From Beduinella massiliensis (lineage in GTDB: Bacteria; Bacillota; Clostridia; Christensenellales; Aristaeellaceae): a DNA stretch of 64,000 nucleotides. The DNA lies in NCBI RefSeq assembly GCF_900199405.1, contig NZ_LT963429.1, positions 1 to 64,000 on the forward strand. The letters are read 5' to 3'. Positions 12,829 through 60,354 of the stretch are shown here, one piece after another. Made by a program: the position numbers and the translations under genes. The first letter of the stretch is position 1. Each line of letters starts with the position of its first letter. The notes beneath the pieces are model-generated. The model did not search any database and was not told the DNA's origin. It was given only the letters and a program-made list of their open reading frames with translations.

Positions 12829-14523
12829 TCAGCGCGGCGAAACCACCGCGAAGCCGCCGAAGCGAGCGGCCGGTTCGAGGCCCAGCGCGCCGGCCTGCTC
12901 CGCCGTGAGCACGTAGGCGGTGCGCTTCTCGAGCGCCTCCGGGCGCAGCGATTCCGCGTCCAGGTATTCGACCGTGAGGCGCTCCTCCGGGCGGCCCAGC
13001 GCGGCCTCCGCGAGGCTTTTTGCCGCGTCCTCGGAGGAATCCCACAGGTCGAAGCAGTCCGCGACCACGATCTGCTCCGCGCCGGTTTCGGCGGCGGCGC
13101 AAAGCGCCTCGGTCATGCCGGGCAGGTGCGTCCTTTGCAGCAGCGCCGCGTTCTCCGCGCCCAGCCACCCGGCGAGGAACTGGCCGCAGGCGACGGCGCC
13201 GAACAGCAGCAGCGCCGCGCCCGCCGCGGGCATGCGCCCCGCGAGGCGGCGGACGCCCGCCGCGCACACGAGGAGCAGGGGCAGGCTGAGCAGCAGCAGG
13301 TGATCCTCGCCCGGAATGCCCAGCAGGCAGATGCCCGCCGCGGTCAGCGCGGCCCACAGCAGCAGCGCGCGTCCCACGCCCGGGTGGCACACCGTGCCTG
13401 GGCGGCGCAGGCAGGCGAAGACGCCCGCGAGCGTCACGGGCACGAAGGCGATCAGCGCGCGGCCCATGCCGGGCAGCAGCGCGCCCTCGGCGGGGGGATC
13501 GCTGAAGAAGCGGAAGACCTCGAAGGAGAGCAGCGCGTCCACGCGGGCGATCAGGGTGGGCCGCAGGGCGTCCAGGCCCTGAAGCCACGCGGCCTCCACC
13601 CCGGGCAGGGAAAGCTCCGGCAGGGTGAAGCCCAGCACGCGCCTGCCGGGGAGGTACAGCGCCGCGCCGAGGAAGCAACAGGCCGGAAGCAGCGCGAGCA
13701 GCGCAAAGAGCAGGGCGGCGCGCCAAGGTGGCGTCCCACGCCTAGTAGGCGTCCCACGCCAAGGTGGCGTCCCACGCCCGGGGGGCGTCCCACGCCTGGG
13801 CGGCACACCGTGCCTGGGCGGCACACCGTGCCTGGGCGGCACACCGTGCCAGGGGGGCATCCTATGCCCGGGGGGCATGAGGAGCAGCGCGGCGAAGGGC
13901 GGCAGCGCGCAGACCTCCGCGCCCGGCAGCGTCCAGCAGGCGAGGCCCAGCAGCGCGCCCGCGAGCGTCAGCCTTCCCCGCACGCCCGCGCACGCGCCCG
14001 CCGTCAGCAGGAAGAGGGCGAAGGGCAGGGGGCGCAGCGCCGCGCCGCTCTGGATGAGGAAGGGGCACAGCGCGAACACCGCGGCCACGCAGACGGGCAG
14101 GGGGCTTGCCTCCTCCCGATTCGGCAGGGCGCAAAGGGCGGCGAGCGGCACCGTGGCCGCGCTCAGCAGCAGGGGGAGCAGGCGCAGCGCGCGCACGCTG
14201 CCAAAGCAGAGCAGGCTGAAGAGATGGGAGAGCAGCGCGGGCAGCGCGCCGGAGGCGGCGGTCGCGACGGGCAGGCCGTCCTGAAGGAAGCGGCGGCCCT
14301 GCACGAGCAGCGCGGCCTCGCCGGGCGAGAGGGAGGCGGGCACGGCGGCGGCGCACGCCGCGCGCAGCAAAAGGCCCAGCAGCGAAAACGCCGCCACGAG
14401 GCGCAGCCGCGCGCGCGGGGTCAGGGGACGCAGCCGCCCCGCCGTCAGGCGGTTCACGGCCCCGCAGCAAAGGGGCGAGGCGCACAGCACGAGCAGCAGC
14501 ACGGACAGCAAGAGCAGGGCCAT
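12829..14523 (-). CDS. polytopic membrane protein, GT-C glycosyltransferase-like, with an internal hexapeptide repeat
   Basis: This 564-residue membrane protein has about ten hydrophobic helices. Its first extracytoplasmic loop after helix 2 contains SPGEAALLVQGRRFLQDGLP, which fits the PMT/ArnT (GT-C) pattern in which an acidic residue in loop 1 is catalytic. Between helices (about residues 219-267) lies a hexapeptide repeat (PPRHGV, PPRRGT, PPWRGT) encoded by 18-bp DNA units at 13725-13868, most unusual for this family. The start overlaps the stop of the upstream gene (TGATG), so the two are translationally coupled. The pair probably transfers sugars from polyprenyl carriers onto an envelope polymer. 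Family assignment is by topology and motif only. Confidence 0.8.
   Translation of the reverse strand: MALLLLSVLLLVLCASPLCCGAVNRLTAGRLRPLTPRARLRLVAAFSLLGLLLRAACAAAVPASLSPGEAALLVQGRRFLQDGLPVATAASGALPALLSHLFSLLCFGSVRALRLLPLLLSAATVPLAALCALPNREEASPLPVCVAAVFALCPFLIQSGAALRPLPFALFLLTAGACAGVRGRLTLAGALLGLACWTLPGAEVCALPPFAALLLMPPGHRMPPWHGVPPRHGVPPRHGVPPRRGTPPGRGTPPWRGTPTRRGTPPWRAALLFALLALLPACCFLGAALYLPGRRVLGFTLPELSLPGVEAAWLQGLDALRPTLIARVDALLSFEVFRFFSDPPAEGALLPGMGRALIAFVPVTLAGVFACLRRPGTVCHPGVGRALLLWAALTAAGICLLGIPGEDHLLLLSLPLLLVCAAGVRRLAGRMPAAGAALLLFGAVACGQFLAGWLGAENAALLQRTHLPGMTEALCAAAETGAEQIVVADCFDLWDSSEDAAKSLAEAALGRPEERLTVEYLDAESLRPEALEKRTAYVLTAEQAGALGLEPAARFGGFAVVSPR
13725..13880. repeat. 18-bp tandem hairpin repeat inside a coding region
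   Basis: Eight units of exactly 18 bp (13725-13868) are followed by a partial ninth. Each unit carries a perfect 5-bp stem with a 3-nt loop, and the stems covary: GGCGT/ACGCC in units 1-4, GGCAC/GTGCC in units 5-7 and GGCAT/ATGCC in unit 8. About one and a half further units recur at 13368-13405 in the same gene. In frame they encode hexapeptides. Confidence 0.9.
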
Positions 14524-16277
14524 CAGGCGTCGCCCCCTTCCGGCAGGTACTGCGCGGGGTAAGCGACGACGAAGCGGCCGAAGGGCCTGAGCGCGAAGTC
14601 GAGCCCCTCGAAGGCCTCCTCCTCGCCCGCGCGCAGCAGATAGACCATGTTTTCGTCCTCGAAGGGCGTAAAGCCCCCGTCCTCCGTCCAGTACTCGTAG
14701 ATGTCGCTGTAATAGCCCAGCTCGTCGCCCGCGCCGTCGAGCAGGGGCTTCTTGTCCTGGAATTGCAGCGCGTCGATCCCGTGCACGAACAGCGCGTTGA
14801 TCTCCGCGACCACCCGCCGCTCCGGGTCCGTGCCCACGCTCAGACAGGCGTATTCAAAGGGCAGGGTGTCCATGTACTCGAGCGCCTCGATCTGGTCGGC
14901 TTCCAGCTCCTCCGTATGGGCCGCAAGCCGCGCCGGGTCGAAGTAGGCGGCGGTGAACAGCGCCGCGCCCACCGCGTAGACGGCCATCATCAGCGGAAGC
15001 AGCGCCTTCACCCGCCGCGCCGCCGCGTACAGCGCGTAGGAGACGAGCAGCAGCAGCGGGTAGTAGATGCCGTTGGAGCGCCAGGTGTTGGAAAGGTTCG
15101 TGAACAGCCCGCAGCAAAACATCGCAAACAGCCAGCACAGCACGAGATAGCCGCTGTCGGCACGGCCCGCCCGCTGCGCATCCGTCCCCCCGCCGAGGGC
15201 GTTTGCCCGCCGGTCCCGCCAGAAGAGGTACAGCCCGGCCAGCAGCGCCGGGGTGGAAAAGACGTACAGCGTGCCGAACCCTTCCACCACCGTCGGCCAG
15301 CCGCCGCTGGATTGCAGGAACGTGTGGTGCAGGAACGTCAGCAGGTTCTCGCGCAGCTGCACGAACATGTCCTTCTGGGCGAGAAACAGCGTGTCCGAGG
15401 CGCGCACCGAGGCGCTGAAGCGCTGCAGCGTGAGGGGGCCCAGGCGCATCGTCTCCAGCCCGAGCAGGTTGATCGCAAGCGTCAGCAGCAGCGGCAGGGC
15501 CACCAGCAGGTAAATCGCCGCGCAGCCGAGCAGCTGCCGCAGGCTGATCTTCCCGTGGGCGAGCAGGTACACGCCCGATGAGAGCAGCAGGATGGGCACG
15601 GAATAGGCGGCGATGGCGTAGGCGTACATCGTCAGCCCGAAGAAGACCATCGAAAGGGCGTAAAAGCCCCGCCGCCGCGTGCCCAGCACCAGGAAATAGG
15701 TGGAAAAGAGGAGCATGTGGCAGAACATGTGCGCGTCGATGGACCAGCGCGACTGCACCACGTGCCAGGGCAGCACCGCGCACAGCGCCAGCGTCATGAG
15801 CGCGTAGCCCCGCCCCGCCACGCGGCGCGCGAGGTCGAAGAGCACCGGCAGCGAGAGCAGCGCCACGCTCAGCATCGGCAGGCGCAGGCTCAGCTTGTTC
15901 AGGCCCAGAAAGCGCGTGAACAGCGACGCCCAGTAGGCGTACAGCGCGCTCTGCTGGCCGTAGCCCCAGCCCCAGAGCATCGTGGGGTAGGGCGTGCCGA
16001 AGCGGTCCGTGCCGTAGCTGGAAAGGGCCCAGGCGTCCAGCGTGGACATCACGCCGTCGGTGTTCATGCCGTAGGGGATTTCGGGAAAGCGGTAGACCCG
16101 AAGCGTCACCGCCAGCGCGAGCAGCAGCAGGGCGCACAGGGCGTACCTGCGGTCGATGAACGCCCAGAGCCTTTGCCCCAGCGCCTGCGCGCGGCCATCC
16201 GCGCGCGGGCGGCCGCGCACGCCCAGCGCCAGCAGCGCCGTCAGCAGCGCGGCGAAAATCGCGTTGACGGCGCTCAT
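14523..16277 (-). CDS. ArnT/PMT-like membrane glycosyltransferase
   Basis: This 584-residue polytopic protein has the GT-C layout: an N-terminal helix, then a large first loop with IPYGMNTDGVMSTLDAWALS, in which Asp residues can play the catalytic role seen in ArnT/PMT enzymes. About a dozen helices and a C-terminal soluble domain (about 450-584) follow. It would transfer a sugar from a lipid carrier to an acceptor outside the membrane. Start ATG 16277 follows GGAAGGAGGGGG; its ATGA overlaps the stop of a candidate 25-codon leader ORF. Its 3' end overlaps the start of the second glycosyltransferase-like gene, making a two-gene operon. Confidence 0.85.
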   Translation of the reverse strand: MSAVNAIFAALLTALLALGVRGRPRADGRAQALGQRLWAFIDRRYALCALLLLALAVTLRVYRFPEIPYGMNTDGVMSTLDAWALSSYGTDRFGTPYPTMLWGWGYGQQSALYAYWASLFTRFLGLNKLSLRLPMLSVALLSLPVLFDLARRVAGRGYALMTLALCAVLPWHVVQSRWSIDAHMFCHMLLFSTYFLVLGTRRRGFYALSMVFFGLTMYAYAIAAYSVPILLLSSGVYLLAHGKISLRQLLGCAAIYLLVALPLLLTLAINLLGLETMRLGPLTLQRFSASVRASDTLFLAQKDMFVQLRENLLTFLHHTFLQSSGGWPTVVEGFGTLYVFSTPALLAGLYLFWRDRRANALGGGTDAQRAGRADSGYLVLCWLFAMFCCGLFTNLSNTWRSNGIYYPLLLLVSYALYAAARRVKALLPLMMAVYAVGAALFTAAYFDPARLAAHTEELEADQIEALEYMDTLPFEYACLSVGTDPERRVVAEINALFVHGIDALQFQDKKPLLDGAGDELGYYSDIYEYWTEDGGFTPFEDENMVYLLRAGEEEAFEGLDFALRPFGRFVVAYPAQYLPEGGDA

Positions 16278-16351
16278 ATCGCCCCCTCCTTCCCCTGGGA
16301 AACGCAAAAAAGGCCGCGCGGGGCGGCCCTGAAAAGCGGAAAATCGTTCAT
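16274..16351 (-). CDS. candidate 25-residue leader peptide (attenuator)
   Basis: This small ORF starts at ATG 16351, eight bases after a perfect AGGAGG (16365-16360), and ends in a TGA that overlaps the downstream glycosyltransferase ATG. The peptide starts MNDFPLFRAAPRGLFC. The stem-loop and T-run of an intrinsic terminator lie inside codons 8-15, so ribosomes on this ORF should prevent the hairpin forming. A promoter begins immediately upstream. This is the layout of a translation-dependent antitermination leader. The alternative is that the terminator serves the upstream chromate genes and the ORF is chance. Confidence 0.5.
   Translation of the reverse strand: MNDFPLFRAAPRGLFCVSQGKEGAI
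16306..16328 (-). terminator. intrinsic terminator inside the leader ORF
   Basis: Read on the minus strand, a 6-bp stem (GGCCGC/GCGGCC, loop of 5) is followed directly by TTTTTT. It lies between the promoter at 16376-16404 and the glycosyltransferase start. Confidence 0.75.
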
Positions 16352-19091: not shown

Positions 19092-20060
19092 TTATTTGTC
19101 CGGGGGGCGGACGCCGCCCGTGGGGCGGACGCCGCCCGTGGGACGGACACCGTCCGTGGGGCGGGCACCGTCCGGGGGACGGACGCCGCCCGTGGGACGG
19201 ACACCGTCCGCGAGGTAGGCCCGGAGCGCGAGGCTCAGAAAGCGGGCGGCGCCCTCGCCGTACTTGCGGTCGGTCACCTCGATGTACAGGGGGTTCGAGG
19301 CGTAGGCCTCCGCCATCGTCTGGGCGTATTCGCCCATGTCGAGGCCCCGGCTGCCCTCCTCGTTGAGGGCGAGCAGCTCGCGCAGCGCCGCCTGCACCGC
19401 TTCGTCCGCGGGGTCGCGCGTCAGGTCGGCCGTGAGCTTCCGCGTCCGCGCGTCCGTCTCCTCTATAAGCTCCTGCGCGCGCTCCTTCGTGACCGCCGGG
19501 CCGTCCTCCAAAAAGGTCTTCAAGCTCTTTTCCATGGCCTGGGCGTAGCGCCCGGCGTCGCCGTACTGGGCAAGCGCGCCGTCCGCCATCTCGGCCTGGC
19601 GCTGCCGGAGGTCCGATGCCATCTCGTCAAACTGTTCCATGCTGCCGAAGCGGCGGACGATCTCGTCCGCGTGGGTCTTTTTAAAGCTTTCGAGCATCCG
19701 AAAGTACGCGCTCATGTCAAATTCCGCAAAGCTCATGCAAGGTTCTCCCTTCAATAATCGGTCTATGAGGTGAAGCAGGCCGCTCAGGCGCTCGCGCTTG
19801 AGGGTAAGCAGCTCGCGCTGCGCGCGCAGCGCCGCGGAGCGGTCGAAGTGGGGGTCCTTCAGGATCGCCTGGATTTCCTTTAGCTTGAACCCAAGCTCCC
19901 TGAAAAAGAGGATTTGCTGAAGCGTTTCCAGCGCGGCCTCGTCGTAGAGGCGGTAACCGCCCTCGCCCGCCCGCGCGGGGCACAGCAGGCCGATGTCGTC
20001 GTAGTATTGCAGCGTGCGTACGCTGACGCCCGTGAGCGCCGAAACCTGTTTTACCGTCAT
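19092..20060 (-). CDS. MerR family regulator of the TipA type with a repeat-extended C-terminus
   Basis: This 322-residue regulator has an N-terminal MerR winged helix (TVKQVSALTGVSVRTLQYYD, then ARAGEGGYRLYDE), a dimerisation coiled coil (about 75-120) and a C-terminal TipAS domain (about 145-285) of the kind that binds thiopeptide-like ligands. The last ~37 residues are a hexapeptide repeat (GVRPTG/GVRPPD) encoded by six 18-bp DNA units, not part of TipAS. It should activate its own promoter, which has the distorted 19-bp spacer typical of MerR targets (20122-20152). No exporter gene lies directly beside it, so its other targets are elsewhere. Confidence 0.9.
   Translation of the reverse strand: MTVKQVSALTGVSVRTLQYYDDIGLLCPARAGEGGYRLYDEAALETLQQILFFRELGFKLKEIQAILKDPHFDRSAALRAQRELLTLKRERLSGLLHLIDRLLKGEPCMSFAEFDMSAYFRMLESFKKTHADEIVRRFGSMEQFDEMASDLRQRQAEMADGALAQYGDAGRYAQAMEKSLKTFLEDGPAVTKERAQELIEETDARTRKLTADLTRDPADEAVQAALRELLALNEEGSRGLDMGEYAQTMAEAYASNPLYIEVTDRKYGEGAARFLSLALRAYLADGVRPTGGVRPPDGARPTDGVRPTGGVRPTGGVRPPDK
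19104..19211. repeat. 18-bp tandem hairpin repeat at the 3' end of the MerR gene
   Basis: Six units of 18 bp each contain a 6-bp stem with a 3-nt loop. Units 1-2 use GGGCGG/CCGCCC and units 3 and 6 use GGACGG/CCGTCC, i.e. compensatory changes; units 4 and 5 mix the two arms. The unit length and design match the repeat at 13725-13868, though the sequence differs. Confidence 0.88.
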
Positions 20061-28505: not shown

Positions 28506-28507
28506 CG

Positions 28508-28771
28508 AACTTCGCCTCACGGCGGGGTTCGCCCCGCATTTCGCGGCGCTGCGGCCGTAAAAGAGCAAGGATACCCCCTTGGGGGCTTGAACTTCGCCTC
28601 ACGGCGGGGTTCGCCCCGCAGCTCGCGGCGCTGCGGCCGTAAAAGAGCAAGGATACCCCCTTGGGGGCTTGAACTTCGCCTCACGGCGGGGTTCGCCCCG
28701 CAGCTCGCGGCGCTGCGGCCGTAAAAGAGCAAGGATATCCCCCTTGGAGGCTTGAATTTCGCCTCACGGCG
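28508..28771. repeat. 82-bp tandem repeat between sdaAB and sdaAA
   Basis: Three full units begin at 28508, 28590 and 28672 (period exactly 82 bp), and a fourth, partial unit begins at 28755. Each holds the hairpin GCGGGGTTCGCCCCGC and a CCCCCTTGGGGG palindrome. Copies differ by only a few bases, so the expansion is recent. No ORF is convincing across it. Confidence 0.92.
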
Positions 28772-28781
28772 GGGGTTATAT

Positions 28782-50794: not shown

Positions 50795-52504
50795 ATGGCA
50801 AAACGCATCCTTTCCCTCTTCCTCGCGCTGCTGCCCGCGCTGCTGCCGCTGCCTGCGGTGCTGCCGCTGTCTGCGGTACTACCGCTGGCCCTCGCGGAGG
50901 ACGCCGCGCCGCAGCTGACGAACGTGCTGGCGGAGGATTCCGTGCTCGTGCCCGGCAGCAGCTGGTACATCGAGTTCGATTCCAGCGTCGCGGGCACGGT
51001 CACGGCGACGCTGATCAACCTCTCCGACGGCTCGGAGCACAGCGAGCTGGGCCAGATCCCCGTCAAGGAGGGCCACGGCATCCTGCGCTGGGACGGCCGC
51101 CTGTCCGAGACGGAGACGCTGTCCGCGGGCCCCTGGGGCATCGTGCTGCGCCTCACGGACGGGGCGGGCAACGAATCCGCCGCGCAGATGATCGCCTTCG
51201 ACGTGGAGGCGGAGGGGGGCGCCCCCGCCGCGGCCGCGCAGGACGATGAAGCGGACGCGGGCGACGGCGAAGCGCCCGGGGACGGCGAAGCAGAGCCGGC
51301 GGACGAGCCCGAAAAGACGACGCCCGCGCCCACCCGGACGCCCGCGCCCGAGGCGACGAAGAAGCCCGTGCCCACGGCCAGGACGTATTGGGAGATGAAC
51401 CCGGACGACTACGACCTGGACGACCCCGAGCACCAGCAGGCGATCTGGGACATCATGATGCAGCCCATCACCGTGCTGGAAAAGGATCAGCGCGAGCACG
51501 TCTACCCGACCTACGAGGCCGGAGCGGAGCTGCGCCCCCGCACGAACATCGCGGGCGAGCTGCACGGCACCTCGCAGGGCGTCAACATCCTTTCCGAGGA
51601 TCAGGACGGCTACACGCTGATCGAGGCGTACTCCAACGACGGCACGGCGATCGAGTCGCAGCACGTCATCGACCAGGCGGCCAAGCTGATTCAGGGCTAC
51701 GTGAAGACCAGCCTGCTCAAGAGCGTGACGCCCTCCGACAAGTACGCGCTGCTCGTAGACAAGCTGACGCAGAAGCTCTACATCTTTGAAGACGGCAAGA
51801 TCATCGGCGAGCTGATCTGCTCCACGGGCTTCCCCACGAAGGATCAGCCCTACAACGAGACGCCCGCGGGCGAGTTCATCGTCGTAAGCTGGGTGGGCCA
51901 GTTCGAGAGCGGTTCGGGCTCCGGCCTGATGTACTGCGACCTGGCGATGCGCATCAACGGCGGAACGCTGCTGCACGAGGTGCCGCACAAGCTGAGCTCG
52001 GACGGCTCCACGCGGCGCTACGCCAACTTCGAGGCGTACCTCGGCCAGAAGGCGAGCCACGGCTGCATCCGCATCCAGCGCGCCAAAAACGAGCAGGGGC
52101 AGAACATGCGCTGGCTGTGGGACAACCTCAAGAAGAACACCAAGGTGCTCATCTGGGAGGACAAGGGCCGCACCATGCCCGACCCCGAGCTGCCCGCGGA
52201 CGACACGCCGCTTTACCGCAACCTGGACGGCGGCAAGATGTACCACGCGGTGGCGGAGTGCCCGAACGTCAAGAAGCGCTTCCTGCCGCTGACGGGCGAC
52301 TTCACCTACGGCGACCTGGACACCGCGCCGTTTGACAAGCTGACCCCCTGCCCGGACTGCCACGCGCCCCTGCGCAAGGAGACCATTCTGGAAAACTGGA
52401 AGAAGGCCGCCGAGCAGATCGGCGCGGCGATCCCCGACGACGTGCTCGGCTCCAGCGACCAGACCGCGGACGAAATCGAGGGCGCGGACGCGCCGGACGA
52501 ATAA
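50795..52504 (+). CDS. secreted L,D-transpeptidase (YkuD) with Ig-like and SH3-like domains
   Basis: This 569-residue exported enzyme has a signal peptide (very Leu/Pro-rich), an Ig/FlgD-like domain (about 45-135), an acidic Ala/Glu linker, an SH3-like repeat region (about 235-300), a YkuD domain (about 320-455) with SHGCIRIQRAKNE (catalytic HxxxxxxSHGC pattern), and a C-terminal Cys/His-containing segment (YHAVAECPNVKKRF, CPDCHAP). It makes 3-3 cross-links in peptidoglycan or attaches proteins to it. The start is ATG 50795. The alarmone synthetase-like gene follows 32 bp later. Confidence 0.93.
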   Translation: MAKRILSLFLALLPALLPLPAVLPLSAVLPLALAEDAAPQLTNVLAEDSVLVPGSSWYIEFDSSVAGTVTATLINLSDGSEHSELGQIPVKEGHGILRWDGRLSETETLSAGPWGIVLRLTDGAGNESAAQMIAFDVEAEGGAPAAAAQDDEADAGDGEAPGDGEAEPADEPEKTTPAPTRTPAPEATKKPVPTARTYWEMNPDDYDLDDPEHQQAIWDIMMQPITVLEKDQREHVYPTYEAGAELRPRTNIAGELHGTSQGVNILSEDQDGYTLIEAYSNDGTAIESQHVIDQAAKLIQGYVKTSLLKSVTPSDKYALLVDKLTQKLYIFEDGKIIGELICSTGFPTKDQPYNETPAGEFIVVSWVGQFESGSGSGLMYCDLAMRINGGTLLHEVPHKLSSDGSTRRYANFEAYLGQKASHGCIRIQRAKNEQGQNMRWLWDNLKKNTKVLIWEDKGRTMPDPELPADDTPLYRNLDGGKMYHAVAECPNVKKRFLPLTGDFTYGDLDTAPFDKLTPCPDCHAPLRKETILENWKKAAEQIGAAIPDDVLGSSDQTADEIEGADAPDE

Positions 52505-59946: not shown

Positions 59947-60354
59947 TCAGCTTTCCTTTTCCTGCTTGTGCCCCAGCGCCTCGTCCACGGCCGTGGTGGC
60001 GTTGTAAAGCACCTGGGCCATGTCGAACCCAAGATGATCGAGCTTGAGCTCCATGGAATTGACGCGCTTTTGCAGCAGAATCTGCCCTTCGCGCAAAATG
60101 TCCTGGCCCGCCTTCAGCTCTCTGATGTCGCCCTCCATCGAGTCCATGCGGCCTTCCATCGAGTCCATCCGGCTCTCCATCGAGCTGATATGGCTCTCCA
60201 TCGAGTCCATCCGGCTTTCCATCGAGCCGATATGGCTCTCCATCGAGTCCATCCGGCTCTCCATCGAGCTGATATGGCTTTCCATCGAGTCGATATGGCT
60301 CTCCACCGAGCCAAGCTTTTCTAGTACGAGGCGTTGAAACTCTTCGTTTTCCAT
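59947..60354 (-). CDS. coiled-coil protein with a 7-residue (21-bp) repeat
   Basis: This 135-residue protein starts MENEEFQRLVLEKLG and then has about nine SMESHIS/SMESRMD heptads, matching a coiled coil with Met and Ile in the core positions, followed by a different helical tail (LREGQILLQKRV, ALGHKQEKES). The DNA repeats with a 21-bp period between about 60130 and 60310. The start is ATG 60354 after AAAGGAGC. The family is unknown; similar short coiled-coil proteins occur in phages and Firmicutes. Its repeat number could vary between strains. Confidence 0.75.
   Translation of the reverse strand: MENEEFQRLVLEKLGSVESHIDSMESHISSMESRMDSMESHIGSMESRMDSMESHISSMESRMDSMEGRMDSMEGDIRELKAGQDILREGQILLQKRVNSMELKLDHLGFDMAQVLYNATTAVDEALGHKQEKES
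60130..60310. repeat. 21-bp tandem repeat within the coiled-coil gene
   Basis: About nine copies of a 21-bp unit resembling CATCGAGTCCATCCGGCTCTC, each encoding one heptad. Copies differ at a few third positions and at one His/Arg alternation. Confidence 0.85.

Follow-up and report, generated by a model that had tools for sequence, protein, structure and literature searches.

The window, by which we mean the whole 64,000-nt stretch of DNA analyzed here, holds two genes on its reverse strand that contain tandem arrays of short hairpin-forming units within their coding sequences. The relevant features are listed by window coordinates, with stems written on the sense strand.

12829-14523, reverse strand: orphan multi-pass membrane protein gene (564 aa), host of array 1
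about 13721-13880, reverse strand: array 1, eight full 18-bp hairpin units with partial units at both ends
13730-13796, reverse strand: four units of array 1, stem GGCGT/ACGCC
13802-13850, reverse strand: three units of array 1, stem GGCAC/GTGCC
13856-13868, reverse strand: one unit of array 1, stem GGCAT/ATGCC
13369-13409, reverse strand: detached copy, roughly two units long, also within the membrane protein gene; hairpin at 13386-13398
19092-20060, reverse strand: MerR/TipAS-type regulator gene (322 aa); array 2 encodes its C-terminal tail
19098-19210, reverse strand: array 2, six 18-bp hairpin units encoding DGVRPT-type hexapeptides

The 564-aa host protein of array 1 contains ~10-11 hydrophobic segments, has no Pfam match, and has no homologue at E≤1e-10 among 60 relatives; its gene is preceded by a PMT_2 family gene (14523-16307). 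The array itself encodes residues ~215-268, which lie in a loop between hydrophobic segments. Each unit is built from a perfect 5-bp stem, a 3-nt loop (GGG, GGT or AGG on the sense strand) and a 5-nt spacer, giving a period of 18 bp, and the full units appear as 13-mers at 13730, 13748 and onward to 13856 (span 13730-13868). A sequence-only reading of this DNA had described eight hexapeptide-coding units with 5-bp stems, in three versions that change on both arms together. This description is borne out, as eight units are present, each with five of five positions paired, and 40 of 40 stem pairs are Watson-Crick, a level that was reached with p=0.0005 when the arms were shuffled within the array. 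Tandem Repeats Finder splits the array into two period-18 repeats (13721-13797 and 13794-13859). A further stretch that had been placed about 330 bp away in the same gene was also recovered, as a 41-bp copy located 312 bp from the array; it matches positions 13785-13825 of array 1 at 38 of 41 positions and, because it is offset by 416 bp, is read in a different frame. No Rfam family matches the 64,000-nt window at the gathering score, and a known RNA family was rejected on this ground; a plasmid origin of array 1 was rejected, as no match was found in the plasmid collection.

The second gene had been reported to carry repeats of equal unit length and design (19104-19211), and six units are indeed present, the full ones at 19106-19208, with a layout like that of array 1 but different bases. 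Their stems are GACGG/CCGTC and GGCGG/CCGCC, two units are half-changed, and 28 of 30 pairs are Watson-Crick. In other genera, the MerR homologues that were inspected stop at about the position where array 2 starts, and lack the repeat tail.

The sequence-only reading had also proposed a genome-wide search for 18-bp units of the stem-3 nt-stem form. This search used array 2 as a query, a scan of sampled stretches, and two separate covariance models (R1 and R2), as aligning all units jointly by sequence moved the registers by two bases. It uncovered further arrays in at least four other genes of this genome (G000), in both congeners tested (G001 and G002), and in a single genome from a different family. 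The clearest additional loci in G000, besides which weaker arrays were also detected, are given by contig.

C3:795966-796236: pair of arrays; the host is a TPR protein carrying chitobiase C-terminal-like domains
C3:758712 onward: array A5, stem AAGAT/ATCTT beside GGGAC/GTCCC
C3:704974: array in the tail of a large primase-looking protein, mostly with 4-bp stems
C1:1494: array in TelA

Among the 60 relatives, model R2 located arrays in the two congeners and in G057, which belongs to another family of the same order, whereas model R1 added only G025, with a single weak match, and G026. The G026 matches were set apart from the 18-bp class, as they represent a different repeat of ~31 nt with GGGGC-GGA-GCCCC stems that is likely non-coding and recurs at several places in that genome (L132, L136-L142). 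In a collection of species genomes, at least 119 stretches match the pattern, but among the matches listed only congener G001 has at least three perfect stem versions. A viral source was also considered and rejected: six viral contigs match the three-unit pattern, but no contig shows more than one perfect stem version. In total, some two dozen arrays, spread over unrelated genes of some gut-type Clostridia, share one design and contain 20 different perfect stem sequences. A literature search, which mostly excluded subscription papers, found no published account of such 18-bp arrays and is thus weak evidence of novelty.

The arrays show a strong preference for one period. When periods of 13 to 30 were scanned in sampled stretches of four genomes, some of which were chosen for holding matches so that array densities are biased upward, runs of at least three perfect 5-bp stems with 3-nt loops occurred only at periods 18 and 27, and the period-27 signal is mostly a second register of period-18 arrays. 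No such runs were found in 0.70 Mb from eight other genomes of the same family, most of which have lower GC; control G033 (66.7% GC, 80 kb sampled) contains 18-bp repeats without stems. Tandem repeats in the array-bearing genomes favor period 18 generally, and some of their 18-bp coding repeats are stemless. Nearly all in-gene stem arrays have period 18, while the likely non-coding hairpin repeats have periods of 22 and 31 bp. The 22-bp repeat (L032:6393-6500; G000 C2 ~70,400) forms CAGGG/CCCTG hairpins with 5-nt loops, and the same stretch contains a ~200-base run of N in the genome record from L032:1103 (C2 ~65,100). Within the window we also observed an 82-bp tandem repeat (28507-28774, 3.3 copies) that contains several hairpins and lacks a clear coding frame, a 21-bp coding repeat without significant hairpin stems (60133-60312) whose SHIDSME-type heptads probably form a coiled coil, and an 18-bp repeat without significant stems in an apparent signal peptide (50830-50887). 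Collagen-like (L040) and GEPDNF-type (L029) repeats were put aside as ordinary coding repeats.

Nearly all arrays lie in frame within genes, at termini, linkers or loops, and their unit length preserves the reading frame. Several hosts are supported by Pfam: the array lies inside the domain in NTP_transf_3 and DEAD_2 proteins and at the protein end in RNase J, TelA, DUF1385 and HD proteins, and TPR proteins are also among the hosts. In G057 an array lies within the DEAD_2 region of an XPD/DinG-like helicase (L122, C20), and in G001 one occupies the loop preceding the VGDQP motif of a MobA-like transferase (L134, C51). The units run head to tail and their copy number differs between related genomes, a comparison made at the species level only: the MobA-like enzyme has zero, three and four units in G000, G002 and G001, respectively, and a second gene, 'gene X', has zero, two and eight. 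The MobA-like proteins of G002 and G001 are 97% identical, and their stems differ at synonymous sites. Arrays occur in all three codon phases, and the encoded peptides are usually rich in Ala, Pro, Gly, Arg and Glu and are probably disordered. However, 12 of 16 rows share one phase, most of these arrays encoding xxSAPx-type linkers, so filtering at the protein level is not nil.

One alternative is that a mobile or copied DNA element, akin to REPs or Rickettsia palindromic elements (RPEs), underlies the 18-bp unit, inserting in frame and then expanding. The detached 41-bp copy, which lies in the array 1 gene but is read in another frame, is what such an element might leave behind, as is the presence of very similar units, e.g. 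GGCGGACTCCGCC, in arrays of different genes and of another family. On the other hand, the architecture is constant while the stems vary widely between arrays, fixed ends are not evident, and in the MobA-like gene the array grades into native codons at its edges. Moreover, PF01797 (Y1_Tnp, the REP-associated RAYT transposase) is absent from G000, G001 and G002, with one partial match in G057, and a REP/RAYT system was therefore rejected. Taken together, we consider a mobile element unlikely. We think it similarly unlikely that a previously unrecognized, lineage-specific process writes or spreads 18-bp hairpin units of 5-3-5-5 layout into coding sequences, seeds new sites such as the out-of-frame copy, and keeps the arms complementary, in which case unrelated proteins would continually gain in-frame segments.

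The stem arms covary. Across all arrays 592 cells are paired, as compared to 548.7 on average, and 574 at most, over 5000 within-array shuffles. The fourth stem pair of phase-2 arrays joins two synonymous third codon positions: 25 pairs are G-C, 26 are A-T and only 5 are mixed. A within-array shuffle over all 77 synonymous cells gave p=0.00065, and a pooled Fisher test gave p=3e-10, although its units are not independent; as units share ancestry by duplication, independent paired changes are far fewer than the cells counted. With 51 matched and 5 mismatched cells, covariation at this doubly synonymous pair is not explained by protein selection. At unit boundaries where the arms differ, pairing is higher within units (0.887) than between neighbors (0.786). 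Independent variation of the arms, which the sequence-only reading had named as evidence against its view, does occur in some units (in A2, A4, gene X and TelA), but covariation holds overall. The peptide is not what is conserved in the arrays, as indicated by the synonymous covariation, the use of several frames and the existence of orthologues that lack an array, and in this respect the sequence-only reading, which favored selection on structure rather than on protein, was correct.

Its second half fared less well. If mRNA structure were selected, whether for slowing ribosomes, shielding transcripts or a similar role, half-changed pairs on the sense strand should tolerate G·U and avoid A·C; we counted 26 G·U and 30 A·C (26 and 24 without one mis-registered array), which gives no sign of such selection. 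While arm covariation, including that of synonymous pairs, and the predicted RNA folds agree with a role in the transcript, the fold of array 1 improves only modestly on those of shuffled sequences (RNA z -2.1), the arrays occupy N-termini, middles and C-termini of unrelated genes, and array-free orthologues exist. Selection on mRNA structure therefore seems quite unlikely to us. We judge it improbable that these are ordinary protein linker repeats, in which hexapeptides are selected as disordered linkers and the stems arise incidentally from GC-rich codons for Ala, Pro, Gly and Arg. The shared codon phase of most arrays and their xxSAPx-type products fit such linkers, stemless 18-bp coding repeats occur in the same genomes, and same-pattern matches in other taxa mostly look like ordinary repeats; yet synonymous third positions covary, the same DNA yields different peptides in different frames, and array 1 combines three stem versions with complete pairing. 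A DNA-level function, in which cruciforms serve as protein-binding sites or as signals for topology or replication, agrees with the strand-symmetric covariation and with the folds obtained using DNA parameters (z -3.1 for array 1, and -3.3) but is very improbable, as placement inside genes is irregular and lineage-specific and copy number at one site ranges from 0 to 8 among congeners.

The arms change together even at sites that leave the protein unaltered, which suggests that a DNA-copying process, rather than protein function, shapes the repeats. On balance, we favor a model in which the arrays are in-frame palindromic minisatellites that are born locally, expand by slippage, and have their arms maintained by template switching, with the reading frame acting as the main filter. 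The starting point would be a short sequence prone to form hairpins, located at a site of a gene that tolerates it (a terminus, linker or surface loop); replication slippage would duplicate this sequence into 18-bp head-to-tail units. A point mutation in one arm would then often be copied to the other arm, or removed, by polymerase template switching within the hairpin, such that the arms remain complementary as the stem sequence drifts. The main selective filter would be the reading frame and the tolerance of the host protein, in keeping with in-gene unit lengths divisible by three, and the peptide would be a by-product of a nearly neutral process.

Slippage with template-switch correction is preferred because G·U pairs are not in excess and because template switching is known to make hairpin arms complementary: it is established at quasipalindromes in E. 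coli (PMC7202029), homogenizes the arms of inverted repeats in yeast genes, in coding DNA (PMC8604942), has been proposed for RNA genes (PMC8794818), and yields the same kind of paired changes when it occurs between hairpin arms (PMC8794818, PMC7202029, PMC8604942). Its expected product is found here, namely arms that are complementary through paired changes the protein does not explain; the role of template switching is inferred from these changes rather than seen directly. Other features accord with it only partly. The covarying states differ by 23 transitions and 2 transversions, as expected from point mutation followed by copying, whereas bacterial template switching favored transversions (PMC8604942), which counts against the model. 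Loop inversions, its clearest footprint, were not noticed on inspection of the array units, and the array stems, at 5-6 bp, fall short of the arms studied in yeast (7 bp or more; PMC8604942). The model also leaves the strong preference for 18 bp over 15, 21 or 24 bp without an account.

Covarying stems are usually read as proof of selection on structure. As some of the paired changes described here are doubly synonymous and occur in unrelated genes, the arrays provide a natural test of whether complementarity can be kept by replication. They also show new peptide segments entering conserved enzymes, including a MobA-like transferase, an XPD/DinG-like helicase and RNase J.

The arrays resemble several known systems without coinciding with any of them. 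Like PARCEL (PMC2996958), they are repeated in tandem inside genes and show dyad symmetry at the DNA level; however, the PARCEL unit is 75 nt long and encodes an amphipathic motif of 25 residues that is conserved. Assignment to PARCEL was rejected, as the 18-nt units of the arrays are read in several frames and encode differing hexapeptides. Rickettsia palindromic elements and intragenic REPs (PMC10969869, PMC3733652) similarly place in-frame palindromic DNA at tolerant sites of unrelated genes. RPEs are ~100-150 bp long (PMC10969869), and the arrays were not classed with them, as they consist of 18-bp tandem units with 5-bp stems and contain no insert of that size. REPs are 20-40 bp long with a GTAG or CGTC tag (PMC3733652) and do not form 18-bp tandem arrays; no constant tetranucleotide was evident by eye beside the hairpins of the listed units. 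Template-switch mutation at quasipalindromes (PMC7202029, PMC8794818, PMC8604942) likewise generates paired changes and complementary arms in the absence of selection on structure, but the known cases are single quasipalindromes, as opposed to fixed 18-bp hairpins arrayed in tandem across many genes. Closest in their working are the in-gene tandem repeats of Borgs (aaTRs; PMC9879509), which are also recent and genome-specific, have units divisible by three within genes but mostly not between them, and produce disordered peptide stretches. The Borg repeats differ in being near-perfect and A-rich and in having units of varied length, and palindromic units with covarying arms are not described for them, whereas the arrays reported here have GC-rich units of 18 bp and add to this mode of repeat growth a unit that is self-complementary.
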